A DNA stretch of 39,235 bases from Aeromicrobium sp. CnD17-E. GTDB taxonomy: Bacteria; Actinomycetota; Actinomycetes; Propionibacteriales; Nocardioidaceae. Made by a program: the position numbers and the translations under genes. Under the pieces are notes generated by a model, which saw only the letters and a program-made list of their open reading frames with translations, did no database searches and was not told where the DNA came from. The stretch spans positions 1 through 39,235 of the forward strand of contig NZ_JAMXRU010000020.1 of the NCBI RefSeq assembly GCF_024124745.1. The letters run 5' to 3'. Of this stretch, positions 11,046-33,010 are shown in pieces. Position 1 is the first letter of the stretch. Every line of letters begins with the position of its first letter.

Positions 11046-11086
11046 CCGCGACGCCCACCCCGACCTCCGACCCGAAGGACCCCATC

Positions 11087-11776: not shown

Positions 11777-11793
11777 CACCGAGGGCAGCCACC

Positions 11794-17628: not shown

Positions 17629-17666
17629 CAACGTACTTGAACCTGAACCCGGGTTCAAGTACGTTG
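17629..17666. promoter_or_regulatory. operator A of the shared regulon (thiolase / acyl-CoA ligase)
   Basis: A long dyad with 15-bp perfect arms (CAACGTACTTGAACC at 17629-17643 and its complement at 17652-17666) around 8 bp. Its core, TGAACCTGAACCCGGGTTCA (17638-17657), recurs with small changes at 24430, 31930 and 32014. It lies 49-68 bp before the thiolase GTG and 70-89 bp before the ligase ATG, so it can serve both directions. The TetR gene at 29725 is the probable partner. Confidence 0.8.
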
Positions 17667-17726: not shown

Positions 17727-19232
17727 ATGGTGAACGTGGCAGCGACGGTCTGGTCCAACGCCGAGCGCGACCCGCAGCGGATGGCGGTGCGCTCCGGTCG
17801 GGGCGACCTGACCTACGGCGAGCTCCGGGAGGCGAGTGCTCGCGTCGGCGGCGCCGTGACCGCCGCGGGTCTGCGCCCCGGCGACCGGGTGGTGCTCATC
17901 GCCCCGAGCGTCCTGGAGTTCCCCGTGGTCTACCTGGGCCTGCACGCCGTCGGCGTCAGCGTCATCACGATGAACACCATGGCCACCGCGGCCGAGATCG
18001 GCTACGTGCTCGACGACGCGGAGGCGTCGCTGGTGCTGGCCTGGCACGAGTGCGACACCGCGGCGTCCGCCGCCGCTGCCGAGCGAGGCCTCGCGTTCTG
18101 GCGCGTCGAGGACGGCGCGAGCTTCGACGCCGAGCCGTTGGCGGTCGCGCACGACCACGCGCCCGACGACACCGCGATCATCCTCTACACCTCCGGCACC
18201 ACCGGCCGTCCCAAGGGCGTGGAGCTCACCGCGGCCAACCTGATCGACACCACCGACTCCTTCCTGCCCGTGCTCAACCTGACGGCGGAGGACCGCTTCG
18301 GCACGGGCCTCCCGCTCTTCCACGTGTACGGCCAGGCGGTCGTCATGAACACGGTGCTGGTCACCGGCGCCTCGCTCTCGCTGCTCGCGCCCTTCGAGCC
18401 GACCGCGATGCTGGAGATGGTCCGCCGCGACCGCCTGACGGTCCTCGCCGGCGTCCCGACGATGTGGAACGCGATGCTGCACGCCGCGACCGACGCGTTC
18501 GGCCCGTCGGACTTCGAGCAGCTCCGACTGGCCACGTCCGGCGGCGCGTCGCTGCCGGTGGAGGTCATGCGTGCCTTCCGCGACCGGTTCGGCTGCACGA
18601 TCCTGGAGGGCTACGGCCTCACCGAGTCGACCGGCGCGGCCACGTTCAACGACATCAACCGGCCCCAGAAGGCGGGCACCGTCGGACCGGCCCTGCCCGG
18701 CACCGCGATCGAGGTCCGCGACCCGCTCGGCGCGGTCGTCGAGCCGGACGTCGTCGGCGAGGTCTTCCTCAAGGGCCCGACGATCATGAAGGGCTACCGC
18801 AACCGGCCCGACGCCACGGCCGCCGACCTGCAGGACGGCTGGCTGAAGACCGGCGACCTGGGCCGGCTCGACGCCGAGGGCTACCTCAGCATCGTCGACC
18901 GGGCGAAGGACCTGATCATCCGCGGTGGCTACAACGTGTACCCCCGCGAGGTCGAGGAGGTGCTGTACGAGCACCCCGACGTCGTCGAGGTGGCCGTGGT
19001 CGGCGTCCCCGACGCACACTTCGGCGAGGAGGTCGCCGCGGTCGTCGCCCTGCGCGAGGGCGCGGAGCTGACCGGCGAGGAGCTGCGCGCCTGGGCCAAG
19101 GTCCAGCTGTCGGCCTACAAGGTGCCCCGGCTCTACCAGTTCGTCACCACCCTGCCGAAGGGCGCGACGGGCAAGATCCTGAAGCGCGAGATCGACCGCG
19201 ACGCCATCCGCACCGCGGAGGTCGGCGCATGA
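17727..19232 (+). CDS. acyl-CoA synthetase (AMP-forming, FadD-like)
   Basis: It activates a carboxylic acid to its CoA thioester by way of an acyl-adenylate. The 501-residue protein has the P-loop YTSGTTGRPKG (154-164), GYGLTES (295-301), the WLKTGD segment, the hinge VDRAKDLIIRGGYNVYPREVE and the C-terminal catalytic lysine in PKGATGKILKRE. The start has AAGGAG and GAGGA elements upstream. It opens the plus-strand operon (ligase-SDR-HAD-ABC transporter) behind operator A. In the proposed pathway it would load the 4-hydroxy acid onto CoA, as LvaE does in levulinate catabolism. Chain length of the substrate is unknown. Confidence 0.92.
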   Translation: MVNVAATVWSNAERDPQRMAVRSGRGDLTYGELREASARVGGAVTAAGLRPGDRVVLIAPSVLEFPVVYLGLHAVGVSVITMNTMATAAEIGYVLDDAEASLVLAWHECDTAASAAAAERGLAFWRVEDGASFDAEPLAVAHDHAPDDTAIILYTSGTTGRPKGVELTAANLIDTTDSFLPVLNLTAEDRFGTGLPLFHVYGQAVVMNTVLVTGASLSLLAPFEPTAMLEMVRRDRLTVLAGVPTMWNAMLHAATDAFGPSDFEQLRLATSGGASLPVEVMRAFRDRFGCTILEGYGLTESTGAATFNDINRPQKAGTVGPALPGTAIEVRDPLGAVVEPDVVGEVFLKGPTIMKGYRNRPDATAADLQDGWLKTGDLGRLDAEGYLSIVDRAKDLIIRGGYNVYPREVEEVLYEHPDVVEVAVVGVPDAHFGEEVAAVVALREGAELTGEELRAWAKVQLSAYKVPRLYQFVTTLPKGATGKILKREIDRDAIRTAEVGA

Positions 19233-20038
19233 AGGTCGAGGGGAGCGTCGCGGTCGTCACCGGCGCGGCAGGAGGCATCGGCCTGGCCGTCGCGCAGAGG
19301 CTGCTGGAGCACGGGGCCCAGGTGGTCGTCACCGACCTCGACGCCGCGCGCACCGCGGCGGCCGTCGCCACGTTGGAGGCACACGGCGCGGACCGGGTGG
19401 CGGGCCTGGCGGGTGACTGCTCGCTCGAGGCCGACGTGCGGGCCGTGCTCGACCTCGCCGTCGAGCGCTTCGGCCCCGTCGACCTGTACGTCGCGAACGC
19501 CGGGGTCGGCCTCGGGCAGGGCCTGGAGTCCTCCGAGGACGACTGGAGCACCTCGCTCGACGTCAACGTCATGGCGCACGTGCGCGCGGCCCGGCTCCTG
19601 GTGCCGGGCTGGCTCGAGCGGGGTCGGGGCTACTTCCTGAGCACCGCGTCGGCCGCCGGGCTCCTGACGCAGATCGGCTCGCCGACGTACTCGGTCACCA
19701 AGCACGCTGCCGTGGCCTTCGCCGAGTGGCTGTCGGTCACCTACGGCACCCGAGGCGTCGCCGTCAGCTGCCTGTGCCCGATGGGGGTGAACACCGCCAT
19801 GCTCACCGGCGGCGCGGACTCCGACGACCCGACCGCGCGTCAAGGTGCGAGAGCGGTCACCGAGGCGGGCGGCGTGCTCGAGCCGCTCGACGTCGCCGAC
19901 GTCGTGCTCGACGCGATCGACGACGAGCGCTTCCTCGTGCTGCCTCACCCGGAGGTGCTGGAGTTCTACCGGCGCAAGGCCTCCGACTACGACCGCTGGC
20001 TCGCCGGCATGCGCCGCTACCAGGACACGCTCGCATGA
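19229..20038 (+). CDS. short-chain dehydrogenase/reductase
   Basis: NAD(P)-dependent oxidoreductase of 269 residues. It has TGAAGGIG (11-18) for cofactor binding, D36 after the second strand (suggesting NAD preference), a VANAG variant (88-92), catalytic S141, Y154 and K158 in YSVTK, and the C-terminal extension LPHPEVLEFYRRKASDYDRWL. Its start overlaps the ligase stop (ATGA). It probably acts on a hydroxyacyl-CoA or an alcohol made in the same pathway. A second SDR lies at 26507, so the two may serve different positions of the substrate. Confidence 0.88.
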   Translation: MKVEGSVAVVTGAAGGIGLAVAQRLLEHGAQVVVTDLDAARTAAAVATLEAHGADRVAGLAGDCSLEADVRAVLDLAVERFGPVDLYVANAGVGLGQGLESSEDDWSTSLDVNVMAHVRAARLLVPGWLERGRGYFLSTASAAGLLTQIGSPTYSVTKHAAVAFAEWLSVTYGTRGVAVSCLCPMGVNTAMLTGGADSDDPTARQGARAVTEAGGVLEPLDVADVVLDAIDDERFLVLPHPEVLEFYRRKASDYDRWLAGMRRYQDTLA

Positions 20039-20697
20039 GCGGCGCGGCGACGCCCCGCTGCCGGGCGGCCCTGTTCGACTTCGGCGGGGTGCTGACGACG
20101 AGCGTGCTCGACGCGTTCGGCGACCACAGCGAGCGGATCAGCGGTGACCGCGGCCTCCTGCTGCGGCTGCTCGGCGGCGGTGACGCGGAGGCCAAGCAGC
20201 TCCTCGTCGACCACGAGGAGGGACGGCTCGACCACGACGGCTTCGAGGCGGGGCTCGCCGAGCGGCTGCACGCCCACGGCGTCGAGGTCGCGGCGGAGGG
20301 ACTCGTCGCCGGGCTGCAGTCGGGCCTGCGACCCGACGCGGCCATGCTCGACGTCGTCGCCGACCTGCGGGCCGCAGGCGTGCCCGTCGGTCTCGTCTCG
20401 AACTCCCTGGGCCGTGACTGCTACGCCGGCTACGACCTGCCGGCTCTCTTCGACGCCGTGACCATCTCCGGCCAGGAGGGCGTCCGCAAGCCGTCGCGAC
20501 GGCTCTACGAGATCGGGTGCGAGCGCCTCGGCGTCGCACCGCGGGAGGTCGTCATGGTCGACGACCTCGCCCAGAACATCGTCGCTGCCGAGCGTCTCGG
20601 GATGGCTGGCGTCGTGCACCGCACCGCGGAGGAGACCGCCGAGCAGCTCTCGCAGCTGCTCGGGGTCGACGTGAGGAGGACCGCCGCACTGCGGTGA
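20035..20697 (+). CDS. HAD-superfamily protein, ACAD10 N-terminal-like
   Basis: The 220-residue HAD hydrolase-fold protein has motif I LFDFGGVL (nucleophile D15, with Gly at the usual second-Asp position), motif II VSNS (S122), lysine K152 in VRKPSRRLYE and motif III VDDLAQN (D176-D177). The DxGGVL variant and the overall pattern recall the N-terminal HAD domain of human ACAD10. The start overlaps the SDR stop (ATGA), and the ABC transporter genes follow 93 bp later. Since the APH-type kinase and the ACAD11-like dehydrogenase lie in the same regulon, a role in handling a phosphorylated acyl intermediate is likely but inferred. A generic phosphatase is the alternative. Confidence 0.8.
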   Translation: MSGAATPRCRAALFDFGGVLTTSVLDAFGDHSERISGDRGLLLRLLGGGDAEAKQLLVDHEEGRLDHDGFEAGLAERLHAHGVEVAAEGLVAGLQSGLRPDAAMLDVVADLRAAGVPVGLVSNSLGRDCYAGYDLPALFDAVTISGQEGVRKPSRRLYEIGCERLGVAPREVVMVDDLAQNIVAAERLGMAGVVHRTAEETAEQLSQLLGVDVRRTAALR

Positions 20698-20790
20698 TCG
20701 AGGGGGGAACAGCACCACCCCGGAGCGGCCACCCGGCCGGTCCACCCAGCACAGGTCCGCCCGCCCGGGCGACCACTCTCAGGAGGACAC

Positions 20791-21768
20791 ATGAACGTTC
20801 GACGCTTCGGCCTCGGCCTGGTGGCAACGGCGGCGCTGGTCGTCACCGCCGCCTGCGGCAGCGGGGACACCGGTGGCAGCGGTGGCGGCGGAGGAGACGA
20901 CGCCTACACGATCGGCATCGTCAAGTTCGCCTCGAGCGAGGAGACCTCGGAGGCGGCCATCGCGGCGTTCCGCGAGGAGGCCGAGGCCAAGGGCTGGAAG
21001 ACCACCGCGGTCGACCCCCAGGGTGCGGTCGAGAAGGCCAACGGCGCCATGCAGGACTTCGTGCAGAAGAAGGTCGACCTCATCGTCACCGCCGTCTTCG
21101 ACAGCAAGACGCTGACGGCCGGCGCGCAGGCCGCGAAGGCCGCGGGCATCCCCGTCGTCTCGATCTCCGGCGGCACCACGGACGGCATCACCGCGAACCT
21201 CGACTCCGGCGTCGCGGTCGGCGCGCCGGTCGCGAAGCAGCTCGTGGAGGACATGGGCGGCAAGGGCGAGCTGCTGGTCATGGGCTACAAGAGCGGTCTG
21301 CCGTGCATCGGTCGCGAGGAGGCGCTCGACGACGCGCTGAAGAGCACCGACATCAAGGTCACCCGCAACGAGGTGCCGATCCCCGGCCAGGTCGAGGGTG
21401 GGACGCAGTTCGCGCAGGCCTGGCTGGCCAAGCACCCGAAGGGCTCGACACCGCTCGCGATCTGGGGCTGCTTCGACGACCCGGCGCTCGGCGCGGTCTC
21501 CGCGGCGAAGTCGGCGGGGCGCGACGACGTGAAGATCTACGGCATCAACGGCACCCCGGCCGCCATCAAGGCGGTCGAGGCGGGCGACATGCGCGCCACC
21601 GTCTTCCTGCAGGTGCCCGAGGCCGGCAAGAAGTTCGCCGACATGGTGCCGGAGTTCATCGAGGGCGGCGTCGACGCGAAGCCGCAGGAGGTCGAGCTGC
21701 CGAACATCCTCGTCACGACCGACACGGTCACGCAGTTCCTGGCCGACAACCCCGACGCGACGAAGTAG
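20791..21768 (+). CDS. sugar-type ABC transporter substrate-binding lipoprotein
   Basis: Periplasmic-binding-protein family (ribose/xylose type) of 325 residues. A signal peptide with lipobox LVVTAAC (C22) is followed by a Gly/Ser linker (24-35) and a mature domain opening YTIGIVKFASSEETSEAAI; VDLIVTAVFDS, GIPVVSISGG and VKIYGINGTPAAIKAVEAGDMRATV are typical segments of this fold. The start has AGGAGG upstream. It works with the ATPase and permease that follow. The ligand is not evident; in this catabolic regulon it is more likely a polar hydroxy acid, lactone or polyol than a common sugar. Confidence 0.9.
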   Translation: MNVRRFGLGLVATAALVVTAACGSGDTGGSGGGGGDDAYTIGIVKFASSEETSEAAIAAFREEAEAKGWKTTAVDPQGAVEKANGAMQDFVQKKVDLIVTAVFDSKTLTAGAQAAKAAGIPVVSISGGTTDGITANLDSGVAVGAPVAKQLVEDMGGKGELLVMGYKSGLPCIGREEALDDALKSTDIKVTRNEVPIPGQVEGGTQFAQAWLAKHPKGSTPLAIWGCFDDPALGAVSAAKSAGRDDVKIYGINGTPAAIKAVEAGDMRATVFLQVPEAGKKFADMVPEFIEGGVDAKPQEVELPNILVTTDTVTQFLADNPDATK

Positions 21769-21841
21769 TCCGATGACCGACACGTCCTCGAGGGTCCGGC
21801 CTGCCGGCCCGACCCCGACCGAGCACCCCCAGGAGTCCCTC

Positions 21842-23419
21842 ATGGTCGAGACGACCCCGCTCGACGGTCCGACGGCGCCGACGGTGACCGATCCGCCCTG
21901 CCTGGAGATGTCCGGCATCTCCAAGCAGTTCGGCGGCCACCAGGCCCTCGAGGACGTGTCCATCACGCTGCACCCGGGTCGCGTCCTCGCCCTCTGCGGG
22001 GCCAACGGCGCAGGCAAGTCGACGCTCGTGCGCATCCTCGCGGGGGTGGAGAGCGCCGACGCCGGCACCATCCGCGTCCGCGGCCAGGAGGAGACCGTCG
22101 CCAGCCCGGGCGACGCGACCCGGCTCGGCCTCAGCTTCATCCACCAGGAGCTCAACCTGGTGCCCAAGTTCACCGCGCTGCAGAACATCGCGATGGGAGC
22201 CGACCACCCCCGCCGCACCGGGGTGCTCGACCTGCGCGGCCTGCGTCGCAAGGCCCTCGCCGTCATGGACCGCATCGGGTACTCCGTGCCGCTCGACGCC
22301 AAGGTCGAGCAGCTCTCGGTCTCCGACCGCTGGATGGTCTCGCTCGCCCGGTCGCTGATGCGCGACGCGAGCATCGTGGCCATGGACGAGCCGACGGCCT
22401 CGTTCACGCAGGAGGAGGCGGACCGGCTCTACGGCATCGTCGACGAGCTCACCGCCGACGGTGTCGGGATCCTGTACATCTCGCACCGGCTCGAGGAGGT
22501 GCTGCACGTCAGCGACGACGTGACGGTGCTGCGCAACGGCCGCCTGGTGGGCAGCTACGCGGCTCGCGACCTCGACGTCGCGAGCCTCACGCGGCACATC
22601 GTCGGCCGCGACGTCGAGGACCTGACCCACCGCGTCACCGACACCGACCCGACCGCCGCGCCCGTGCTGCTCCGGACGTCGGGCCTGACCCGGGAGCCCC
22701 GGGTGCGCGACGTCGACCTGACGATCCACGAGGGCGAGATCCTCGGTGTCGCCGGGCTCGTCGGCGCGGGGCGCACCGAGCTGGCGCGACTGCTCATCGG
22801 CGCCGACGCCGCGCACGCGGGCAGCATGACGCTCGACGGGCGGCCGTACCGTCCGGGCTCCCCGTCCGACGGCATCAAGGCCGGCGTCGCGCTCGTGCCC
22901 GAGGAGCGACGCTCGCAGGGGCTGGTGCTGCGCAGCTCGGTCGCCTCGAACATCACCATGGCCTCGATGCGCGACCCGCGACGCCGGCTGGGCACGTTCA
23001 GCCCCCGACGGGCCGCGGCCACCGCGCGCGACGCCGTCAGCCGCTTCGGGGTCAAGACGTCGTCGGTGCACGACGCGGTCGGGCACCTCAGCGGCGGCAA
23101 CCAGCAGAAGGTCGTGGTCAGCAAGTGCGTGCTGACCGGTCCCCGGCTCCTGATCCTCGACGAGCCCACCGTCGGCGTCGACGTCGGTGCCCGCGGCGAG
23201 ATCTACGACATCATCCGCGACCTCGCCGCGTCCGGGACGTCGATCCTCATGATCTCCAGCGACTTCGACGAGCTCGCCATCTGCGACCGCGTCGTCGTCA
23301 TGCGCGAAGGAGCGCTCACCCACTCGGTGCCTGCCTCGCGGGCCACGAAGGACCACCTCACCTCGCTGTGCTTCGGGACCACCGAGCACCTCGGCACGAC
23401 AGAACAGGACCCGTCATGA
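21842..23419 (+). CDS. sugar-type ABC transporter, tandem ATP-binding protein
   Basis: Two fused nucleotide-binding domains (525 residues), as in RbsA/XylG. Domain 1 has Walker A GANGAGKST (53-61) and Walker B VAMDEP; its signature is the degenerate LSVSDRWMVS. Domain 2 has the usual degenerate Walker A region GLVGAGRTELARLL, signature LSGGNQQKVVVSK and Walker B LLILDEPTVGVDVG. The ATG at 21842 is chosen because AGGAG lies 6 nt upstream and the length then fits the family; an in-frame ATG at 21773, 5 bp after the previous stop, would add 23 residues. It overlaps the permease start by 4 bp. Confidence 0.92.
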   Translation: MVETTPLDGPTAPTVTDPPCLEMSGISKQFGGHQALEDVSITLHPGRVLALCGANGAGKSTLVRILAGVESADAGTIRVRGQEETVASPGDATRLGLSFIHQELNLVPKFTALQNIAMGADHPRRTGVLDLRGLRRKALAVMDRIGYSVPLDAKVEQLSVSDRWMVSLARSLMRDASIVAMDEPTASFTQEEADRLYGIVDELTADGVGILYISHRLEEVLHVSDDVTVLRNGRLVGSYAARDLDVASLTRHIVGRDVEDLTHRVTDTDPTAAPVLLRTSGLTREPRVRDVDLTIHEGEILGVAGLVGAGRTELARLLIGADAAHAGSMTLDGRPYRPGSPSDGIKAGVALVPEERRSQGLVLRSSVASNITMASMRDPRRRLGTFSPRRAAATARDAVSRFGVKTSSVHDAVGHLSGGNQQKVVVSKCVLTGPRLLILDEPTVGVDVGARGEIYDIIRDLAASGTSILMISSDFDELAICDRVVVMREGALTHSVPASRATKDHLTSLCFGTTEHLGTTEQDPS

Positions 23420-24420
23420 CCGCTGCACTCGTCGACGTCCCCGTCCTCCAGGCCCCGCCGCGCCGTGCGCGGGTGTGGCGCTGGTTCGGCCGCTACGGCG
23501 CGCTCCTCGTGCTCGCGCTGCTCGTGGTCGGCACGAGCGCCCTGGAGCCGGAGACCTTCGCGACCTGGGACAACTTCATCAACATCCTCAACCAGAGCGC
23601 CCTGTCGGCGATCATCGCGATGGGCCTGACCTTCGCGCTCGTCACGGGGGAGTTCGACCTCAGCATCGGCAACGTGGCGAGCCTGTCGGGCGTGCTGGCG
23701 TGCACCGCGATGGTGAGCCACGACGTCTCGATCCCGGTGGCGTTCGGCCTGGCCGTGGTCATCGGCGCCGTGGTGGGCCTGGCGAACGGCCTGGTGGTCA
23801 CGCTGCTCAACGTGAACGCGCTCGTCGCGACGCTGGGCATCGGCACGGTCGCCGTCGGCGTCAACTACGCGGTCGCCGGTGGCCTGCCGGTCAGCCTGAC
23901 CGATCCCGCGCCGTTCATCCAGATCACGCTCGGGCGCTTCCTGGGCATCCCGTACCCGGTGTTCATCATGCTCGGGCTCGCCGCCGTCCTGTGGTTCGTG
24001 CTGAACCGCACCGTGCTCGGCCAGTCGATGCAGGCCGTGGGCGGCAACCCGGTGGCGGCCCAGCTGTCGGGCATCCGCGTCGACCGGGTCCGCGTCGTCG
24101 CGTTCGTCATCTGCGGCATCTGCGCCGCCCTGACGGGTCTCCTGCTCGCCTCGCGCACCGGCAGCGCGGCGGTCTCCGGCGGCGACACCTACCTGCTGGC
24201 CGCGTTCGCCGCGGCGTTCTTCGGCTCGGCGGTGCTCCGCGACGGGGAGTTCCACATCATCGGCACGCTCGTCGGCGTCATCACGGTCTCGGTCGGCTTC
24301 AACGCCATCGCGCTGATCGGTCTCGAGACCTACTGGCAGTACCTGTTCCAGGGTCTGCTGCTCATCCTCGGCGTCGGGGTCGGGTCGCTCGCCCGGCACC
24401 GGGCGGCGGCGGCGCACTGA
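23416..24420 (+). CDS. sugar-type ABC transporter permease
   Basis: Integral membrane permease of the RbsC/XylH family, with 334 residues and about 8-10 hydrophobic helices. Family segments include ALVTGEFDLSIGNVASLSGVL, NGLVVTLLNVNALVATLGIGTV and the coupling region VLGQSMQAVGGNPVAAQLSGIRVDRVR. A single permease gene implies a homodimer. The start overlaps the ATPase stop (ATGA). It is the last gene of the ligase operon; operator B lies 10 bp after its stop. Confidence 0.92.
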   Translation: MTAALVDVPVLQAPPRRARVWRWFGRYGALLVLALLVVGTSALEPETFATWDNFINILNQSALSAIIAMGLTFALVTGEFDLSIGNVASLSGVLACTAMVSHDVSIPVAFGLAVVIGAVVGLANGLVVTLLNVNALVATLGIGTVAVGVNYAVAGGLPVSLTDPAPFIQITLGRFLGIPYPVFIMLGLAAVLWFVLNRTVLGQSMQAVGGNPVAAQLSGIRVDRVRVVAFVICGICAALTGLLLASRTGSAAVSGGDTYLLAAFAAAFFGSAVLRDGEFHIIGTLVGVITVSVGFNAIALIGLETYWQYLFQGLLLILGVGVGSLARHRAAAAH

Positions 24421-24429
24421 CACACTTTC

Positions 24430-24449
24430 TGAACTTGAACTCGGATTCA
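24430..24449. promoter_or_regulatory. operator B of the shared regulon (enoyl-CoA hydratase operon)
   Basis: TGAACTTGAACTCGGATTCA matches operator A at 17 of 20 positions. It ends 16 bp before the ATG of the enoyl-CoA hydratase gene, in a gap of only 45 bp, so a bound repressor would block the start of that transcript. It shows that the downstream operon has its own promoter besides any read-through from the transporter genes. Confidence 0.75.
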
Positions 24450-24465
24450 TGTTAGGATGACGACC

Positions 24466-25275: not shown

Positions 25276-26510
25276 TGGAGTTCGCACCGAGCCAGAGGTC
25301 CGTGGAGTACCAGGAGAAGCTCCTGGAGTTCATGGACGACTACATCTACCCCGCCGAGTCCATCTACGCGGCGCAGATGGCGGAGTCGGGCAACCCGAAC
25401 TTCCACCCGCCGATCCTGGAGGAGCTCAAGACCGAGGCGCGCAAGCGCGGCCTCTGGAACCTCTTCCACCCGCACGAGCGCGAGGACTGGGGCTCGCCCG
25501 GTCTGAGCAACCTCGACTACGCGCCGCTCGCCGAGATCACCGGCCGCAGCCCCTACATCGCTCCCGAGGCCATCAACTGCAACGCCCCCGACACCGGCAA
25601 CATGGAGGTGCTCGAGCTCTTCGGCACCGAGGAGCACAAGGAGAGGTGGCTCAAGCCGCTGCTCGCCGGCGAGATCAACTCGGCCTTCTGCATGACCGAG
25701 CCCGAGGTCGCCAGCTCCGACGCCACGAACGTGCAGCTGCGGATGGACGCCGACGGCGACGAGTACGTGCTCAACGGACGCAAGTGGTTCGCCTCGAACG
25801 CGCTGCACGCGAACTGCAAGGTGCTCATCGTCATGGGCAAGACGAATGTCGACGCCGCGACCCACCGTCAGCAGTCGATGATGGTCGTCCCGCTCGACAC
25901 CCCCGGCATCACGATCGTCCGCGGTCTGCCGGTCTTCGGCTACATGGACCGCGAGGGCCACGCCGAGATCCTGTTCGAGGACGTGCGGGTGCCCAAGACG
26001 GCGCTGCTGGCGGGCGAGGGCGACGGCTTCATGATCAGCCAGGCCCGCCTCGGGCCCGGCCGCATCCACCACTGCATGCGCTCCATCGGCATGGCCGAGC
26101 GTGCGCTCGACCTCATGATCCAGCGGGCGCAGAGCCGCGTCACCTTCGGCGAGCCGGTCGCGAACCGCTCCAACATCCAGGACTGGATCGCCGAGGCGCG
26201 CATCGAGATCGAGATGATCCGTCTGCTGACGCTCAAGACCGCGTGGCTGATGGACACGGTCGGCAACCAGAAGGCGCGCGTGGAGATCGCAGCCATCAAG
26301 GTCGCGGCGCCGCAGGTGGCGCTGAAGATCATCGACCGGGCCATCCAGGTGCACGGTGGCGGCGGGATCACCGACGACTTCCCGCTCGCCAGCTTCTACG
26401 CCCACCAGCGCACGCTGCGCCTGGCCGACGGCCCCGACGAGGTGCACAAGCGCACGCTCGCGCAGGTCGAGCTGCGGCGCATCGACGCGGACTGGAACAA
26501 GAAGAAGTGA
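25275..26510 (+). CDS. acyl-CoA dehydrogenase, ACAD10/ACAD11-like
   Basis: The 411-residue flavoprotein closely follows the C-terminal domain of ACAD11: GLWNLFHP (59-66), NCNAPDTGNMEVLELFG (101-117), CMTEPEVASSDATN (139-152), RLGPGRIHHCMR (258-269), AERALDLM (274-281) and LADGPDEVHKRTLAQVEL (383-400). Where classical enzymes carry the catalytic Glu of YEG, it has ADG (Asp385), as in ACAD10/11. Members with kinase partners convert 4-phosphoacyl-CoA to enoyl-CoA, letting 4-hydroxy acids enter beta-oxidation. The APH kinase and HAD protein of the same system are nearby. The ATG overlaps the hydratase stop and has GAAGGAG upstream. Confidence 0.93.
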   Translation: MEFAPSQRSVEYQEKLLEFMDDYIYPAESIYAAQMAESGNPNFHPPILEELKTEARKRGLWNLFHPHEREDWGSPGLSNLDYAPLAEITGRSPYIAPEAINCNAPDTGNMEVLELFGTEEHKERWLKPLLAGEINSAFCMTEPEVASSDATNVQLRMDADGDEYVLNGRKWFASNALHANCKVLIVMGKTNVDAATHRQQSMMVVPLDTPGITIVRGLPVFGYMDREGHAEILFEDVRVPKTALLAGEGDGFMISQARLGPGRIHHCMRSIGMAERALDLMIQRAQSRVTFGEPVANRSNIQDWIAEARIEIEMIRLLTLKTAWLMDTVGNQKARVEIAAIKVAAPQVALKIIDRAIQVHGGGGITDDFPLASFYAHQRTLRLADGPDEVHKRTLAQVELRRIDADWNKKK

Positions 26511-27286
26511 CCGGCTCGCTCGACGGGCGCACCGCGATCGTCACCGGGGCGTCCCGCGGCATCGGCCTCGCCGCCGCCGCGGCCCTGCACGACGCGGGCG
26601 CGAACGTCGTGCTCACGGCGCGGACGGAGGAGGCGGCCGCCGAGGCCGCCGCCTCCGTCGGCCCGCGGGCGATGGGCGTCGGCGCGCACGTGACCGACGA
26701 GGACCTCGCGCGCGCCTGCGTCGACCGCACGGTGGAACGCTTCGGCAGCGTCGACGTGCTCGTGAACAACGCGGGCACGAACCCGGCCTACGGGCCCGTG
26801 CTGCGGCAGGACCACGGACGGTTCGCCAAGACGCTCGACGTCAACCTCTGGGGCCCGATCCTCTGGTCGCGGCTCGTGGTCGACGCCTGGATGGGCGAGC
26901 ACGGCGGGTCGATCGTCAACACCGCCTCCATCGGTGGGCTGTCGGTCGGCCCCGACCTGGGCGTCTACCACGTGTCGAAGGCGGCGCTGATCCACCTGAC
27001 CAAGCAGCTCGCGATCGAGCTGGGCCCCACCATCCGGGTCAACGCCGTCGCGCCGGGCGTGGTGCGCACGCGCCTCGCGGAGGCGCTCTGGAAGGAGCAC
27101 GAGGCCGCCGTCGACGAGCGCACCCCGCTCGGGCGCATCGGCGAGCCCGCCGACGTCGGCGCGTCCATCGCGTTCCTCGCGTCGCCCTCCGCGTCGTGGA
27201 TCACCGGCGAGACCCTGGTCATCGACGGCGGCCAGATGATCGGCGCGGGCGCGGCCCTCGACCGGCTCGCGGCCCAGGGCGGCTGA
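26507..27286 (+). CDS. short-chain dehydrogenase/reductase (FabG-like)
   Basis: Classical SDR of 259 residues: TGASRGIG (13-20), NNAG (87-90), catalytic S141, Y154 and K158 in YHVSK, then RVNAVAPGVVRTRLAE and the C-terminal SPSASWITGETLVIDGGQ. The basic residue after TGAS and the TAR end of strand 2 suggest NADP(H). The GTG at 26507 overlaps the dehydrogenase stop. In levulinate-type clusters the SDR (LvaD) interconverts 4-keto- and 4-hydroxyacyl-CoA; a 3-hydroxyacyl-CoA dehydrogenase role is the other option. The context between ACAD and kinase favours the former, but this is inference. Confidence 0.9.
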   Translation: MTGSLDGRTAIVTGASRGIGLAAAAALHDAGANVVLTARTEEAAAEAAASVGPRAMGVGAHVTDEDLARACVDRTVERFGSVDVLVNNAGTNPAYGPVLRQDHGRFAKTLDVNLWGPILWSRLVVDAWMGEHGGSIVNTASIGGLSVGPDLGVYHVSKAALIHLTKQLAIELGPTIRVNAVAPGVVRTRLAEALWKEHEAAVDERTPLGRIGEPADVGASIAFLASPSASWITGETLVIDGGQMIGAGAALDRLAAQGG

Positions 27287-27287
27287 C

Positions 27288-28361
27288 GTGACCACGACCG
27301 ACCCCCGCCAGGCCACGGACGCCCCGGCCCTGGACCTCGCGGTGCTGGCTGGGTTGCTCCGTGCCGACGGCCTCGAGGTGGACGGCGTGCTCGGTGCCGT
27401 CCGTGTCGGCCGCGGGCAGTCCAACCTGACCTACCTGGTGTCCGACGAGGGCGGGCACCGGTGGATCGTGCGCCGTCCGCCACGGGGCGAGCTGCTCGCG
27501 TCGGCGCACGACGTGCTGCGCGAGCACCGGATCCTCGCGGCGCTGGGCGACACGTCCGTCCCGGTCCCGCGGGTGCTCGGCCGCTACGTCGACCCGACGC
27601 TCGCCGAGACGCCGGTCGTCGTGATGGAGCACGTCGACGGCCTCGTGGTCGACCGCGAGGAGACCGCCCACGAGCTCGACACGTCGCTGCGCGCGGCCAT
27701 CGGACCGTCGCTCGCCCGGACGCTCGCTGCCGTGCACGAGGTCGACGTCGACGAGGTGGGCCTCGGTGACCTCGCCTCGCGGGCGCCCTACGCGCAGCGC
27801 CAGCTGAAGCGATGGTCGCGCCAGTGGGAGGCCTCGCGCACGCGGGACCTGCCGCGCCTGGACGCGATGACCGAGCTGCTGCGTCGGCGGGCCCCGGAAC
27901 CGTCGTCCCACGACGGCCGCACGGTCGCGCTCGTGCACGGCGACTTCCACCTGCGCAACGTCATCCTCGACCCGGACCTCGGCGACGTGCGTGCCGTGCT
28001 CGACTGGGAGCTCAGCACGCTCGGCGACCCGCTCGCCGACATCGGCAGCCTGCTCGCCTACTGGCCCGAGGAGGGCGACGGGCCGACGCTGATGTTCGCG
28101 GCGTCGGCACGGCCGGGCTTCGCCACCCGCGAGCAGCTGGCCACCACCTACCTGGAGGCGTCGGGCCGCGACCGCGCCGACCTCGACTACTGGCACGCGC
28201 TGGGGCTCTGGAAGATCGCCGTCATCGCCGAGGGCGTCCTGCGTCGGGCGCTCGACGACCCGCGCAACGCCGCCGACGGCGGGCCACCGGCCCCCGAGGC
28301 GATCGAGCAGCTCGTGGAGCGCGCCTGGGCGGTCGCCGAGACCGCCGGGCTCGACCGTTGA
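27288..28361 (+). CDS. APH-fold phosphotransferase, ACAD11 kinase-domain-like
   Basis: The 357-residue protein has the aminoglycoside phosphotransferase/choline kinase fold. It carries the nucleotide-loop segment GRGQSNLTYLV (41-51), VRRPPRGELLASAHDVLREHRIL (61-83), catalytic VHGDFHLRNVILDP (HGD 217-219, N224) and metal-binding LDWELSTLGDPLADIG (239-253). The same strings mark the N-terminal kinase domain of ACAD11 and LvaA-type kinases rather than antibiotic-resistance enzymes. Expected role: phosphorylate the 4-hydroxyl of a hydroxyacyl-CoA so that the neighbouring dehydrogenase can eliminate phosphate. The GTG start lies 1 bp after the SDR stop. Confidence 0.9.
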   Translation: MTTTDPRQATDAPALDLAVLAGLLRADGLEVDGVLGAVRVGRGQSNLTYLVSDEGGHRWIVRRPPRGELLASAHDVLREHRILAALGDTSVPVPRVLGRYVDPTLAETPVVVMEHVDGLVVDREETAHELDTSLRAAIGPSLARTLAAVHEVDVDEVGLGDLASRAPYAQRQLKRWSRQWEASRTRDLPRLDAMTELLRRRAPEPSSHDGRTVALVHGDFHLRNVILDPDLGDVRAVLDWELSTLGDPLADIGSLLAYWPEEGDGPTLMFAASARPGFATREQLATTYLEASGRDRADLDYWHALGLWKIAVIAEGVLRRALDDPRNAADGGPPAPEAIEQLVERAWAVAETAGLDR

Positions 28362-28395
28362 CCACCACCGACCCGCACGCACCGAAGGAGCAGAC

Positions 28396-29352
28396 ATGAC
28401 CGAGACGCCGTACGTGGGCGACTTCCTGAAGGACTCGCCCAGGAACTGGGGCAAGTGGGGGCCGGACGACGAGGTCGGCTCGCTGAACTACCTGACGAGA
28501 GCCGAGGTGCTGCGCGGCGTGGCCGAGGTCCGCTCCGGGGAGGTGTTCACCCTGCAGGTGCGCATGGGCGACCCGGCGGGCGACCCGGTGTGGCCCGGCC
28601 GTGAGGGCATCCAGCGCTCCAACGTGATGGACGAGGGCTTCTTCCAGCGCGGCGAGGGTGTGGAGACGCCCGGCGGCGCGCACTACTCCGACGACGTCGC
28701 GACGATGTACCTGCAGGCGTCGACGCAGTACGACTCCCTCGGCCACGTCTGGTACGACGGGCAGATCTGGAACGGCTACGACGCCACCACCACCGACGGC
28801 GCGATGCAGAAGGCGTCGGTGCTGCCGATCGCCGAGCGCGGCGTGGTCGGGCGCGGCGTGCTGCTCGACGTGGCCCGGCACCGCGGCAAGGCCGCGCTCG
28901 ACAAGGGCGAGACGTTCACCCACGAGGACCTGCTCGACGTCGCCCGCGCGCAGGGCTGCACGATCGAGAAGCACGACGTGCTGGTCGTCCGCACCGGCTT
29001 CATCGGCTCGTTCTACCGTCAGTCCGCCGAGGAGTTCTACGACGGCTTCCTCGAGCCCGGCCTGACCTACAGCCCGGAGCTCGTGCAGTGGTTCCAGGAC
29101 ATGGAGATCCCGAACCTCGTCACCGACACCATCGCCAACGAGGTCACGGTGGAGCCGTCGTCGGGCGTGACCCTGCCGCTGCACAGCGCGCTCATGCGCA
29201 ACCTCGGGGTGGCGTTCACCGAGATCGCGTGGCTCGAGGACCTCGCGGCAGCGTGCGCCGCCGACGAGCGCTGGACCTTCCTCTACACCGCCGCGCCGCT
29301 CAAGATCGTGAGCGGCACCGGCGCCCCCGTGAACCCGGTCGTCGTGCGATGA
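28396..29352 (+). CDS. cyclase-family protein (kynurenine formamidase-like fold), altered metal motif
   Basis: The 318-residue putative cyclase/metal-dependent amidase is related to kynurenine formamidase. The fold's HxGTHxDxxxH metal motif appears as ASTQYDSLGHVWYDG (about 115-129): Gln replaces the second His, while Asp and the last His remain. WNGYD and FTEIAWLEDLAAACAADERWTFLYTAAPLKI are typical of the actinobacterial subgroup. The start has AAGGAG upstream. It could open a lactone, ester or amide ring in the pathway, complementing the phosphotriesterase-like lactonase, but no substrate is evident. Its stop overlaps the next ATG. Confidence 0.82.
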   Translation: MTETPYVGDFLKDSPRNWGKWGPDDEVGSLNYLTRAEVLRGVAEVRSGEVFTLQVRMGDPAGDPVWPGREGIQRSNVMDEGFFQRGEGVETPGGAHYSDDVATMYLQASTQYDSLGHVWYDGQIWNGYDATTTDGAMQKASVLPIAERGVVGRGVLLDVARHRGKAALDKGETFTHEDLLDVARAQGCTIEKHDVLVVRTGFIGSFYRQSAEEFYDGFLEPGLTYSPELVQWFQDMEIPNLVTDTIANEVTVEPSSGVTLPLHSALMRNLGVAFTEIAWLEDLAAACAADERWTFLYTAAPLKIVSGTGAPVNPVVVR

Positions 29353-29657
29353 GCGCGCTCGACGTCGTGGCGACCCTCGAGGCCCAGGAGGGTCGCGGCG
29401 ACGAGCTCGTCGCCGTGCTGCGGGCCTCGCTCGCGACGGTCCGGGTCGAGGACGGGTGCCTGCGCTACGACCTGCACCGGGTCAGGCGCCGGCCCGACGA
29501 GGTGGTCATGGTGGAACGTTGGGCGTCGGTCGACGCGCTGAAGGCGCACGGCGCCGCCGAGCACTTCCAGCGGACCTCGGCCCAGCTCGCCGACCTGCTC
29601 GCCGCGCCGCCGGTGGTGCGGGTGCTCGAGGCGGTCGACGTCGCGGACGGCGCATGA
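29349..29657 (+). CDS. small ABM-domain protein (antibiotic biosynthesis monooxygenase-like)
   Basis: The 102-residue dimeric alpha/beta-barrel-type protein has the ABM pattern DVVATLEAQEGRGDELVAVLRASLATVRVEDGCLRYDLHR ... DEVVMVERWASVDALKAHGAAEHFQ. Such proteins act as quinol monooxygenases, heme-degrading enzymes or auxiliary folds with no redox activity. The start overlaps the cyclase-family stop (ATGA); it is the last gene before a hairpin terminator. Its role in this pathway is unknown. LvaB, the small partner of the levulinate kinase, is not recognisable in the window. Confidence 0.75.
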   Translation: MSALDVVATLEAQEGRGDELVAVLRASLATVRVEDGCLRYDLHRVRRRPDEVVMVERWASVDALKAHGAAEHFQRTSAQLADLLAAPPVVRVLEAVDVADGA

Positions 29658-29664
29658 GCGAGGA

Positions 29665-29689
29665 GGCGGCCCGGCTCGGCCGGGCCGCC
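29665..29689 (+). terminator. hairpin terminator between the hydratase operon and the TetR gene
   Basis: A perfect 11-bp stem, GGCGGCCCGGC (29665-29675) and its complement (29679-29689), with a 3-nt loop followed by TT, lies 8 bp after the stop of the ABM-domain gene. It should separate the catabolic operon from the TetR gene 36 bp further on. Confidence 0.75.
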
Positions 29690-29724
29690 TTGCACCTCGG
29701 ACCCTCGTTCGTTAGAACAGCACC

Positions 29725-30396
29725 ATGACCGACAGATCCGCGGCGGAGCGCCTCGACGAGGTGCCGGCCCTCGCGGACACCTCGGGCATGAAGGAGCCGC
29801 CCACCACGGCACGTGGTGTGCGCACCCGTGCCGCCCTGGTGGCCGCCGCCCGCACCGTCTTCGAGCGCGACGGGTTCCTGGCGTCGCGGCTCACCGACAT
29901 CACCGCCGAGGCGAAGTGCTCCATCGGCACCTTCTACACCTACTTCACCTCCAAGGAGGAGGTGTTCACGGCCGTGCTCGAGGCGGCCCAGGACGACATG
30001 CTGCACCCGGGGATGCCCCGCGTCGACGACGCCGACGACCCGGTCGCCGTGATCGAGGCCAGCAACCGCGCCTACTTCGAGACGTACAAGCGCAACGGTC
30101 GGCTGATGCGGCTCCAGGAGCAGGTGGCGACGATCGACGAGGACTTCCGTCGGCGCCGGCTCGAACGCGGCGAGGCGTTCGCCCGGCGCAACGCGAAGAG
30201 CATCGAGAAGCTCCAGCAGGACGGTCGCGTCGACGCCACCCTCGACCCGATGATGACCTCGCGCGCCCTCTCGGGCATGGTGAGCCGGCTGGCCTACTCG
30301 AGCTTCGCGCTGGGTGAGGACTGGCCCGTCGACGACCTCGTCGAGACGTCGACCCGGCTGTGGGCCAACGCCCTCGGACTCACGACTCCCCGCTGA
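29725..30396 (+). CDS. TetR-family regulator, probable controller of the regulon
   Basis: The 223-residue protein has a helix-turn-helix at about 30-76 (RTRAALVAAARTVFERDGFLASRLTDITAEAKCSIGTFYTYFTSKEEVF), the standard TetR N-domain, preceded by an unusually long 28-residue leader. An in-frame ATG at 29788 would remove 21 of these residues; neither start has a good ribosome site. The C-terminal ligand domain resembles regulators of acyl-CoA metabolism. It has no copy of the 20-bp operator directly upstream, only a weak GTTC-N4-GAAC at 29707-29718. It is embedded among the four operator-bearing units and is convergent with the reductase gene (1-bp gap). Confidence 0.88.
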   Translation: MTDRSAAERLDEVPALADTSGMKEPPTTARGVRTRAALVAAARTVFERDGFLASRLTDITAEAKCSIGTFYTYFTSKEEVFTAVLEAAQDDMLHPGMPRVDDADDPVAVIEASNRAYFETYKRNGRLMRLQEQVATIDEDFRRRRLERGEAFARRNAKSIEKLQQDGRVDATLDPMMTSRALSGMVSRLAYSSFALGEDWPVDDLVETSTRLWANALGLTTPR

Positions 30397-30397
30397 G

Positions 30398-31399
30398 TCA
30401 GAGCTCGAGCACCAGCTTGCCGGTGTTCCCGCCGTCGAACAGCATGAGCAGCGTGTCCCCGAAGGCGTCCACGCCGCCGCGCACCACGGTCTCGCGCGCC
30501 ACGAGCGAGCCGTCACGCAGCCGAGCCGAGAGGTCGGCGATCGCCTCGGGATAGCGGTCCTCGTAGTCGAAGACCACGAAGCCGGTCATCGAGGCCCGGT
30601 TGACGAGCAGCGACATGTAGTGCGCCGGGCCGGGGGCCGGCTCCGTGGCGTTGTACGTGGAGATCGCGCCGCAGAGCGCGATGCGCGCGCCGCGACGCAA
30701 CGTGCGCAGCGCGCTGTCGAGCACCTCGCCGCCGACGTTGTCGAAGTAGACGTCGACGCCACCCGGCGCGACGGCGCGCACGGCGCGGTGCACGGCTCCC
30801 TCGCGGTAGTCGATCGCGGCGTCGAACCCCAGCTCCTCGGTGAGCCAGCGCGTCTTCTCCGGGCCGCCGGCGACGCCGATCACACGGCAGCCGTGCGCCT
30901 TGGCGAGCTGGCCGACCACGCTGCCGACGGCTCCGGCTGCCCCGGAGACGAGCACGGTCTCCCCGGGCTGCGCTCGGGCGACGTCGAACAGGCCGAACCA
31001 GGCCGTGAGACCGGGCATGCTGAGTGCGCCGAGCCACGTGGGAGCCGGGGCGGCGTCGAGGTCGACGGGGGAGAGGTCGCTGCCGCGCACGACGGCGTGG
31101 TCGGCCACGCCGGTGAGACCGCTGACGGCGTCGCCGACCGCGTGCTCGCGCGAGCGGGACTCCAGGACCGTGCCGACGCCGAACGCGCGCATGACCTCGC
31201 CGACGCCGACGGGCGGCACGTAGGAGCGGACGTCGTTCAACCAGCCGCGCATGGCGGGGTCGAGGGACAGGTGCGTCACGCGGACCAGCACCTCGCCGTC
31301 GCCGAGCGCGGGGAGCTCGGAGTCGACCACGTCCCAGGTGTCGGCGTCGGGCAGTCCGACGGGGCGGGCGCGCAGGCGGACCTGCCGTGCGACGGTCAT
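30398..31399 (-). CDS. NADP-dependent alkene/ketone reductase (MDR family, prostaglandin reductase-like)
   Basis: Medium-chain reductase without zinc, 333 residues, of the leukotriene B4 dehydrogenase/CurA type. It opens RQVRLRARPVGLPDADTWDVVDSELP, then THLSLDPAMRGWLND, the cofactor fold VSGAAGAVGSVVGQLAKAHGCRVIG, and YFDNVGGEVLDSAL. Such enzymes reduce activated double bonds of enals and enones with NADPH. Its ATG overlaps the stop of the MaoC gene (ATGA), so the two form an operon driven from operator C. A step in saturating an unsaturated intermediate is possible; the substrate is not shown. Confidence 0.88.
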   Translation of the reverse strand: MTVARQVRLRARPVGLPDADTWDVVDSELPALGDGEVLVRVTHLSLDPAMRGWLNDVRSYVPPVGVGEVMRAFGVGTVLESRSREHAVGDAVSGLTGVADHAVVRGSDLSPVDLDAAPAPTWLGALSMPGLTAWFGLFDVARAQPGETVLVSGAAGAVGSVVGQLAKAHGCRVIGVAGGPEKTRWLTEELGFDAAIDYREGAVHRAVRAVAPGGVDVYFDNVGGEVLDSALRTLRRGARIALCGAISTYNATEPAPGPAHYMSLLVNRASMTGFVVFDYEDRYPEAIADLSARLRDGSLVARETVVRGGVDAFGDTLLMLFDGGNTGKLVLEL

Positions 31400-31890
31400 C
31401 GGCCGCTGCCCCCGGGGTACTCGGTGAAGCGACCGACCGAGTGCGCGACGCAGATCGGCTTGTCCGACCCCTCGCGCTCGAACGTCTGGCGCGTGACGAT
31501 GTGGGCCGACCCGCCGCCGACGTCGTCGACCGAGACGACCGTGGCGTGCATGCGGATGCGGGAGCCCACCGGGAGCGGCGCCGGGAAGCGCACCTTCTCG
31601 TAGCCGTAGTTGAGGCTGTGGGCGAACCCGTCGAAGGCCATCAGGTCCTCCATGAACCGGGGGCCGAGCGAGAGGCTGTACAGCCCGTGGGCGATGGTGC
31701 CGCCGAACGCGCTGTCGGCGGCGCGCGCCGGGTCGACGTGGATCCACTGGTGGTCGCCGGTCAGCTCCGCGAACGCGTCGACGCGCTCCTGCGTGATGTC
31801 GTGCCACGCGGTCGGGCCGAGGTCGGAACCGACGAGGTCCTGCAGCTCCTGGATCGACGTGGGACGGGGGACGGCGGGGGTCGTGGTCAT
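31396..31890 (-). CDS. MaoC-like (R)-specific enoyl-CoA hydratase, NodN-type
   Basis: Hot-dog-fold dehydratase of 164 residues. The hydratase-2 motif region is TGDHQWIHVDPARAADSAFGGTIAHG (about 56-81): Asp and His are kept while Gln replaces the usual Asn, as in NodN-like members. YEKVRFPAPLPVGSRIRMHATV follows. It hydrates trans-enoyl-CoA to (R)-3-hydroxyacyl-CoA. The ATG at 31888-31890 has GAGGAG upstream. It is the first gene of the minus-strand pair behind operator C, divergent from the phosphotriesterase-like gene. Together with the crotonase-type protein it gives the regulon two hydratase routes. Confidence 0.88.
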   Translation of the reverse strand: MTTTPAVPRPTSIQELQDLVGSDLGPTAWHDITQERVDAFAELTGDHQWIHVDPARAADSAFGGTIAHGLYSLSLGPRFMEDLMAFDGFAHSLNYGYEKVRFPAPLPVGSRIRMHATVVSVDDVGGGSAHIVTRQTFEREGSDKPICVAHSVGRFTEYPGGSGR

Positions 31891-31929
31891 GGTCGGGGTG
31901 CTCCTCGGGTCAGGTCCCCGCAGCGTAGA

Positions 31930-31949
31930 TGAACCTGAATCCGGATTCA
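31930..31949. promoter_or_regulatory. operator C of the shared regulon (MaoC-reductase operon)
   Basis: TGAACCTGAATCCGGATTCA differs from operator A at two positions and has the perfect inner dyad TGAATCCGGATTCA. It lies 40-59 bp upstream of the MaoC ATG, facing that promoter; operator D serves the other side of the same divergent gap. Confidence 0.8.
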
Positions 31950-32013
31950 AGTGAGCCCGTGGCATCGGCTGCTTGACGGTGACCTGTGACCTGGGACACG
32001 CTGTACCCCAGCT

Positions 32014-32033
32014 TGGACCTGAACCTGAGTTCA
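32014..32033. promoter_or_regulatory. operator D of the shared regulon (lactonase gene)
   Basis: TGGACCTGAACCTGAGTTCA differs from operator A at three positions. It lies 18-37 bp before the ATG of the phosphotriesterase-like gene. A degenerate GTGA-N6-ACAC (GTGACCTGGGACAC, from 31986) lies just upstream, echoing the GTGA-N6-TCAC pair next to operator A. Confidence 0.75.
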
Positions 32034-32050
32034 ACTCCGAAGGGACCCCG

Positions 32051-33010
32051 ATGACCACCGTCCAGACCGTGACCGGACCGATCGACGCCAGCGAGCTGGG
32101 CCGGACGCTCGTCCACGAGCACGTATTCGTGCTGAACACCGAGTACAACCAGAACTACCAGGACGACTGGGACGAGGAGGAGCGCATCCGCGACGCCGTG
32201 GAGAAGCTCACCGAGCTCAAGGGACTCGGCATCGACTCGATCATGGACCCGACCGTGCTCGGGCTCGGACGCTACATCCCCCGCATCCAGCGCATCGCCG
32301 CCCAGGTCGACCTGCAGATCGTCGTGGCCACCGGGCTCTACACCTACAACGACGTGCCCCACCAGTTCGAGCACCGCGGGCCGGGCCTCCTGGTCGACAT
32401 GCCCGAGCCGCTCACCGAGATGTTCGTGCAGGACATCCAGGAGGGCATCGCCGGCACCGGCGTGCGGGCGGGCATCCTCAAGTGCGCCATCGAGCTCGCC
32501 GGCCTCACGCCTGGCGTCGAGCGCGTCATGCGGGCCGTCGGGCAGGCTCACGTGCAGACGGGCGCCCCGATCACGGTGCACACCAACCCGGCCAACGAGT
32601 CGGGGCTCGTCGCCCAGCAGGTGCTGAAGGAGGAGGGCGTCGACCTGTCGAAGGTGATCATCGGCCACTCGGGCGACACCAACGACGTCGACTACCTCTG
32701 CCGGCTGGCCGAGGCCGGGTCGATGCTCGGCATGGACCGGTTCGGCCTCGACCTGTTCAACCCGATGCAGGAGCGCGTCGGGACGATCATCGAGCTCGTA
32801 CGGCGCGGGTACGTCGAGCACGTGACCCTCGCCCACGACGCGAACTGCTTCATCGACTACTTCAGCGCCGACGCGAAGGCCCACGCCGCGCCGAACTGGC
32901 ACTTCCGGCACATCAGCGAGGACGTCATCCCGGCGCTGCTCGAGGGTGGTCTGACGGAGGCCGACGTCGAGACGATCCTCGTCGACAACCCCCGCCGGCA
33001 CTTCGAGTAG
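32051..33010 (+). CDS. phosphotriesterase-like hydrolase, probable lactonase
   Basis: Amidohydrolase-superfamily TIM barrel of 319 residues with a full binuclear metal site: HEH (H22, H24), bridging lysine K144 in GILKCAIE, H177 in VHTNP, H206 in GHSGD and D263 in AHDANC. Phosphotriesterase-like lactonases open gamma- and delta-lactones to hydroxy acids; true phosphotriesterase activity is usually secondary. The ATG at 32051 is supported by GAAGGGA upstream. Operator D precedes it. In the regulon it would supply the 4-hydroxy acid for the ligase/kinase/dehydrogenase system. Divergent from the MaoC gene and followed by palindrome locus 3. Confidence 0.9.
   Translation: MTTVQTVTGPIDASELGRTLVHEHVFVLNTEYNQNYQDDWDEEERIRDAVEKLTELKGLGIDSIMDPTVLGLGRYIPRIQRIAAQVDLQIVVATGLYTYNDVPHQFEHRGPGLLVDMPEPLTEMFVQDIQEGIAGTGVRAGILKCAIELAGLTPGVERVMRAVGQAHVQTGAPITVHTNPANESGLVAQQVLKEEGVDLSKVIIGHSGDTNDVDYLCRLAEAGSMLGMDRFGLDLFNPMQERVGTIIELVRRGYVEHVTLAHDANCFIDYFSADAKAHAAPNWHFRHISEDVIPALLEGGLTEADVETILVDNPRRHFE

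Follow-up and report, generated by a model that had tools for sequence, protein, structure and literature searches.

A putative regulon for gamma-lactone and 4-hydroxy acid catabolism in Aeromicrobium, with separate genes for an ACAD11-type kinase, an ACAD11-type dehydrogenase and a HAD protein

The mammalian protein ACAD10 is a single chain in which a HAD domain is fused to a kinase and an acyl-CoA dehydrogenase (ACAD). No agreed function is known for the HAD domain of the human protein. ACAD10, ACAD11 and the bacterial pair LvaA and LvaC are taken to phosphorylate the 4-hydroxyl group of acyl-CoAs and to eliminate the phosphate so that beta-oxidation can proceed. Here we describe a gene cluster in the actinobacterium Aeromicrobium sp. 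CnD17-E, on a 39,235 nucleotide stretch of DNA (NZ_JAMXRU010000020.1; hereafter, the window) that makes up contig C122 of a 3.57-Mb genome in 219 contigs. The cluster encodes a HAD protein, a kinase and an ACAD separately, together with a candidate lactonase. We propose, with moderate confidence, that the cluster is a regulon under TetR control with which Aeromicrobium-like actinobacteria break down gamma-lactones and 4-hydroxy (possibly 4-oxo) acids, using ACAD11/Lva chemistry and adding a HAD phosphatase that acts on phospho-hydroxyacyl compounds.

By sequence, the ACAD and the kinase are both of the ACAD11 type. For the ACAD, the match to ACAD11 (8v3u) reaches 444 bits and that to 4hr3 426, versus 153 for the best other ACAD. 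Across 392 aligned residues it shares 54% identity with the ACAD11 domain, whereas six other ACADs of the genome are 24–29% identical to it; an ordinary ACAD identity is thus ruled out. It keeps the loop ADGPDEVH, which is also found in the genome's second ACAD11-type protein (62%); at this position four of the six other ACADs have xEGT and two have other letters. We infer that the loop, standing in place of xEGT with its catalytic glutamate, marks phosphate-eliminating chemistry. The kinase scores 171 bits against 9o56, 156 against 3dxp and 146 and 142 against two ACAD11 entries, versus 33 for the best macrolide kinase, which rules out an aminoglycoside or macrolide resistance kinase. Its HGD catalytic loop and DWE metal motif (HGDFHLRN and DWELSTLGDPLAD) align to 3dxp and ACAD11. 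An earlier, sequence-only reading had assigned both proteins to the ACAD11 type and had named in advance the result that would speak against this, a closer relationship to aminoglycoside kinases and ordinary ACADs; the comparisons above point the other way.

All of the genes named in that reading, which dealt with positions 17727–33010, were found at or very close to where it had placed them. A further five genes of the span (encoding the PF04199 cyclase, ABM, TetR, PTGR/CurA-type reductase and MaoC-like proteins) went unmentioned there. The features are as follows.

16387..17589, minus strand: thiolase (Pfam Thiolase_N/C), divergent from the ligase across an operator and just outside the 17727–33010 span
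17644..17657, thiolase/ligase gap: operator TGAACCCGGGTTCA, one of four sites at up to one mismatch genome-wide
17727..19232, plus strand: AMP-binding acyl-CoA ligase (PF00501, 286.9 bits)
19229..20038, plus strand: SDR oxidoreductase 1, sdr1 (PF00106, 143 bits)
20035..20697, plus strand: HAD phosphatase-like protein, similar to the N-terminal domain of soluble epoxide hydrolase (sEH) and to TIGR02247, with a DFGGVL motif
20791..21768, plus strand: ribose-type (CUT2) solute-binding protein (Peripla_BP_4; ribose-type binding proteins are the nearest PDB chains, 92.6 bits)
21773..23419, plus strand: CUT2 ABC ATPase with two ABC domains (profile matches)
23416..24420, plus strand: CUT2 permease (PF02653)
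24436..24449, upstream of the enoyl-CoA hydratase run: operator TGAACTCGGATTCA (pattern search)
24457..25275, plus strand: enoyl-CoA hydratase/isomerase (PF00378, 162.7 bits; NF004857, 319.5 bits, below the cut-off of 341)
25275..26510, plus strand: ACAD11/LvaC-type acyl-CoA dehydrogenase
26507..27286, plus strand: SDR oxidoreductase 2, sdr2 (PF13561, 219.7 bits), candidate 4-oxoacyl-CoA reductase or 3-hydroxyacyl-CoA dehydrogenase
27288..28361, plus strand: ACAD11/LvaA-type kinase of APH fold (PF01636, 164.6 bits)
28396..29352, plus strand: PF04199 cyclase-family protein (59 bits; nearest solved structure 5ibz, 166 bits)
29349..29657, plus strand: ABM-domain protein (PF03992, 66 bits)
29725..30396, plus strand: TetR-family regulator (PF00440), presumed operator reader
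30398..31399, minus strand: PTGR/CurA-type NADPH alkenal/enone reductase (PF16884/PF00107; 370 bits to 4b7c)
31396..31890, minus strand: MaoC-like hydratase (PF01575, 82.1 bits), overlapping the reductase start
31936..31949, MaoC hydratase/lactonase gap: operator TGAATCCGGATTCA (pattern search)
32020..32033, upstream of the lactonase: second operator TGAACCTGAGTTCA, one mismatch (pattern search)
32051..33010, plus strand: phosphotriesterase-like (PTE) lactonase candidate

A scan of genome contigs with the kinase gave 138 relatives. The 80 top-scoring loci were kept, every one of which carries an actinobacterial title; genes were counted by bit thresholds within ~10 kb of the kinase, and the counts are lower bounds since contig ends cut some loci. 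The ACAD was found at 69 of the 80 loci, sdr2 at 66, TetR at 53, sdr1 at 52, the ligase at 32, the hydratase at 27, the HAD gene at 26, the reductase at 19, the thiolase at 16 and PTE at 10. Transporter parts (5/80) and the cyclase (4/80) are ruled out as core components by these numbers, and are lineage-specific additions. The nearest named relatives are mostly Aeromicrobium, the kinase being 72–75% identical in L009 and L011–L013 (L011 is titled actinobacterium LLX17), and an Amycolatopsis kinase (L010) is 74% identical. The order of 14 genes from ligase to lactonase is kept in L009, L011, L012 and L013. In L084, the ligase-to-kinase order is kept without a close sdr2 and is followed by TetR and PTE, with the reductase further along and no cyclase. 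In A. phragmitis (L014, G001) the ligase, sdr1, HAD, sdr2, kinase, TetR, reductase and PTE genes lie together, with an 84% identical ACAD ~21 kb further along the same contig, whilst Streptomyces loci such as L021 run thiolase–HAD–ligase–TetR–sdr1–hydratase–ACAD–sdr2–kinase. Thiolase relatives occupy the same place in L149 and L150 (98% and 84%) and occur in Streptomyces clusters also; MaoC relatives likewise keep their place in L009, L011–L013, L149, L150 and L084, and adjoin the kinase in L147.

The transcription units of the cluster are joined by a common operator. Comparing intergenic regions of relatives yielded the palindrome TGAAYYCGRRTTCA, which occurs in the window at four sites if up to two mismatches are allowed, against an expectation of 0.33 and with fewer than four in each of 100 shuffles: at 17644 between thiolase and ligase, at 24436 before the hydratase/ACAD/kinase run, and at 31936 and 32020 between the MaoC and lactonase genes. 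When the entire 3.57-Mb genome is searched with up to one mismatch allowed, no site beyond these four appears; a reversed control pattern occurs once. The genomes of seven relatives hold 28 such sites, of which 17 fall within or next to the cluster (21 of 32 when the window's genome is added), and all 14 exact sites in the eight genomes are in or at the cluster. One of the 14 precedes the fetched locus L013 by ~0.6 kb, at the place expected for the ligase start; the control pattern has 13 sites across the eight. As the motif was derived from these loci, its presence there is no independent test, but its rarity in the rest of each genome does provide one. Promoters of loci from Streptomyces, Rhodococcus and Nocardia carry a related form, TGACGYCGRRTTCA, and the joint pattern is matched in 42 of the 80 loci, some matches falling inside called genes. 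Because TGAAYYCGRRTTCA sites precede both the lactonase gene and the run that includes the kinase gene and, at up to one mismatch, occur only at this cluster in the genome, the two belong to one regulon, as had been claimed before the operator was seen. The TetR protein would be the factor that reads TGAAYYCGRRTTCA. Taken together, the common operator and the gene order kept in relatives rule out a chance neighbourhood, and an operator specific to the cluster gives a means of naming regulon members.

The PTE protein is the only PF02126 match found in the genome (312.3 bits). Its best PDB match is the Mycobacterium tuberculosis protein PHP (4if2, 396 bits), followed by SsoPox (4kez, 242 bits), both near full length, and the metal ligands (HxH, Lys, His, His and Asp) are kept in the alignment to both. 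We take PHP and SsoPox to be phosphotriesterase-like lactonases (PLLs), making PTE a candidate PLL-type lactonase, in line with the sequence-only reading. It is single-copy, 82–98% identical and located at the cluster in five out of five Aeromicrobium-type genomes searched; the L150 stretch stops inside the PTE gene, and genome G120 carries PTE at 93%. Outside Aeromicrobium, PTE lies near the kinase in L020, L036, L042 and L084, beside it in L147, and in the orders PTE–kinase–ligase-like (33%) in L153 and HAD–PTE–ligase–TetR–kinase–ACAD in L152. Two alpha/beta hydrolase genes, missing in the window and L149, separate the operator region from PTE in L009, L011, L012 and L150; for the L150 pair (17800–19430) the best models are 3-oxoadipate enol-lactonases or PcaD fusions, all below cut-off (154.7 and 106.6 bits versus 255.85 for PcaD).

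Read together with the chemistry of ACAD11 and Lva, these gene families suggest a full candidate pathway that would take gamma-lactones to acetyl-CoA. The PLL-type lactonase would open the lactone to a 4-hydroxy acid, which the AMP-ligase would convert to 4-hydroxyacyl-CoA; a 4-oxoacyl-CoA, if that were the entry substrate, would first be reduced by one of the SDRs. The kinase would then phosphorylate the 4-hydroxyl to give 4-phosphoacyl-CoA, from which the ACAD would eliminate phosphate, leaving an enoyl-CoA. Hydration by the crotonase- or MaoC-type hydratase to 3-hydroxyacyl-CoA, oxidation by the other SDR to 3-oxoacyl-CoA and thiolysis by the thiolase would complete beta-oxidation. Phospho-hydroxyacyl compounds that are not handled by the ACAD may be hydrolysed by the HAD protein, which would thereby rescue intermediates that have stalled or been phosphorylated wrongly. 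The lactone or 4-hydroxy acid route put forward in the sequence-only reading thus gains ACAD11-type enzymes, a lactonase candidate and a single regulon; its dedicated sugar-type transporter is present as CUT2 genes but drops out of the core.

What, then, is the HAD protein? The sEH phosphatase ranks first in lists for its predicted fold, at ~23% identity, placing it with that fold, and another entry near the top is YihX, which the PDB lists as alpha-D-glucose 1-phosphate phosphatase; the catalytic residues of motifs II–IV are invariant in the alignment. TIGR02247 is the top family for six out of six HADs tested (84.2–100.9 bits), but in a profile search the window protein does not reach the cut-off of that family (86.5 versus 125.4 bits). 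In 21 of 21 aligned sequences, the aspartate at +2 of motif I is replaced by glycine, as might be expected were the protein a dehalogenase- or epoxide-hydrolase-type enzyme, or a non-catalytic partner, rather than a pathway phosphatase, and haloacid dehalogenases and cis-epoxysuccinate hydrolases do appear further down the fold list. We regard this as unlikely, given the position of the sEH phosphatase at the top of the lists, the invariant residues of motifs II–IV and the high rank of the phosphatase YihX, which likewise has glycine at +2. The sEH phosphatase acts on hydroxy-lipid phosphates and the HAD gene recurs with the kinase, and for these reasons an editing role is favoured: most likely, the protein would be a phosphatase of the sEH lipid-phosphate kind acting on phospho-hydroxyacyl compounds.

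The HAD and kinase genes recur together. Of 67 genomes with a HAD gene, 16, from eight families, have it no more than 8 kb away from a kinase relative; seen from the kinase, the figure is the 26 of 80 loci given above. The kinase has 252 records in many phyla (E 1e-15), whilst 42 of 44 HAD relatives on plasmids are in actinobacterial genera (E 1e-8); HAD is therefore an optional partner. A quick kinase tree of 36 rows, drawn to ask whether the HAD linkage arose once and to which 32 of 38 wanted loci gave a row, places HAD-linked kinases in at least three clades, with only 12 of 33 inner branches starred, and the linkage label is not clearly clustered on it (67 of 500 shuffles as low). Rows from L009, L014, L084, L098, L120 and L153 are missing from the tree (identical copy under another locus, no kinase, or filtered out), and the genome's own second kinase is thus not included. 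HAD is, in sum, a recurrent but not obligatory partner of the kinase: the grouping seen in the single sequence extends to other families, but not as a fixed set. Tentatively, and at somewhat less than even odds, we suggest that 4-hydroxyacyl-CoA catabolism has in HAD a third enzyme of its own, a phosphatase that edits or rescues phospho-hydroxyacyl-CoA intermediates. On this view the kinase, the phosphatase and the eliminase would be a functional trio of long standing, encoded side by side in Actinomycetota across at least three kinase clades and fused in ACAD10, which here would be lactonase-fed, gamma-lactones being mineralised via phospho-acyl-CoA.

Several observations weigh against the proposal. 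No HAD was found within ~10 kb of 54 of the 80 kinases (some loci end at contig ends), two loci on proteobacterial plasmids where kinase and ACAD genes are present have none within 5 kb, and the L155 cluster has HAD and ACAD with the kinase not adjoining. In genome G109, the fetched stretch from HAD to kinase (L151) contains no operator; the genome has four one-mismatch sites, one of them ~4.6 kb from its other kinase relative. The PF02126 family is not made up of lactonases alone. With two SDRs, two hydratases, the reductase, the cyclase and the ABM protein there are more genes than steps placed, and a ribose-like binding protein points more to a polyhydroxylated cargo than to an alkyl lactone.

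Some of the neighbourhoods deserve description in their own right. The L155 cluster (G062, 3779–11850) also contains both SDRs, and the only kinase relative of its genome at E up to 1e-40 lies ~1.1 Mb away. In L122, L123, L127, L129, L133, L136 and L137, from other families, HAD adjoins an ACAD11-type ACAD and, by eye, a wax-ester synthase/diacylglycerol acyltransferase-like protein (the single one tested, from L129, matches Pfam WS_DGAT at 251.8 bits), a second and different neighbourhood for the HAD/ACAD pair. The window's genome itself holds one more kinase relative (47%) and one more close ACAD relative (61%) on other contigs; with genes named by eye, the former adjoins an SDR and a TetR gene (L098/L166, G000:C7) and the latter an SDR and a MaoC-like gene (L090/L167, G000:C57). 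These loci would form a separate, probably related route.

An alternative for the cluster as a whole is that the kinase, ACAD, SDR and ligase form an Lva-like pathway for 4-oxo acids of the levulinate type, with PTE and the reductase sharing its regulator but handling some other lactone or enone, so that no lactone feeds the kinase. The SDR adjoining kinase and ACAD would suit a 4-oxoacyl-CoA reductase (LvaD), and the core is far commoner without PTE, judging by the 69, 66 and 10 loci with ACAD, sdr2 and PTE. That PTE has the same operator and accompanies the kinase in other families (L153, L147, L152) makes this improbable in our view. We give about as little weight to a role in detoxification and catabolism of 4-hydroxy-2-alkenals or oxylipins, in which the PTGR-type reductase would saturate the alkenal, yielding a 4-hydroxy acid or lactone that would enter the kinase/ACAD route, as in mammals: a PTGR/CurA-type reductase does recur (19 of 80 loci) and follows the MaoC gene in a direction of transcription that leads away from the operator pair, but no aldehyde dehydrogenase was seen among the annotated cluster genes. 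A sugar-lactone or polyhydroxylated-acid pathway, hinted at by the CUT2 sugar-type binding protein and ATPase, is very improbable when the transporter accompanies so few kinases and the core enzymes are of fatty-acid type.

Elsewhere in the window, positions 7222–14303 encode an ammonium transporter (minus strand), a glutamine-synthetase-like protein, a glutamine amidotransferase, separate GXGXG and glutamate-synthase domain proteins and then a DAO oxidoreductase, at a guess an N-methylglutamate or gamma-glutamylamide type set. At 1–2648 (minus strand) a class-III aminotransferase gene adjoins one for a radical-SAM/BATS protein, probably the biotin genes bioA and bioB. A near-identical intergenic palindrome, TTTGCGTGGGGCCCCACGCAAA, occurs at 16250–16271 and 33029–33050, with variants at 6956 and 7017, and also in the relative L149; it is a candidate dispersed repeat, terminator or recognition site.

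Returning to the regulon proposed here for lactones and 4-hydroxy acids, how does it compare with known systems? The Lva pathway of Pseudomonas putida (LvaA, LvaC, LvaD and LvaE) has the same set of kinase, ACAD, SDR and ligase but is not known to have a HAD protein, a lactonase or an ABC transporter and has a regulator of another type. DUF6285, tried as a tentative marker for LvaB, has no match in the genome by profile search and was dropped. PTE resembles the PLLs in length, score and metal-ligand positions but sits in a 4-hydroxyacyl-CoA-type regulon, its lactonase activity being a prediction. From the sEH N-terminal lipid phosphatase, TIGR02247 and YihX, the HAD protein differs in the respects given above and in being free-standing. 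The closest parallels are ACAD10 and ACAD11 (the latter in 8v3u, 8v3v and 2wbi), with kinase and ACAD in the same sequence families, the same ADGPDEVH loop and, in ACAD10, a fused HAD domain. Here, in place of that one-chain architecture, there are three separate genes, as the sequence-only reading had it, and their regulon also includes a ligase, hydratases, SDRs, a thiolase and the lactonase candidate. The HAD protein is a free-standing counterpart of the fused HAD domain, and as a bacterial protein that can be deleted and purified alone it makes the role of that domain directly testable.

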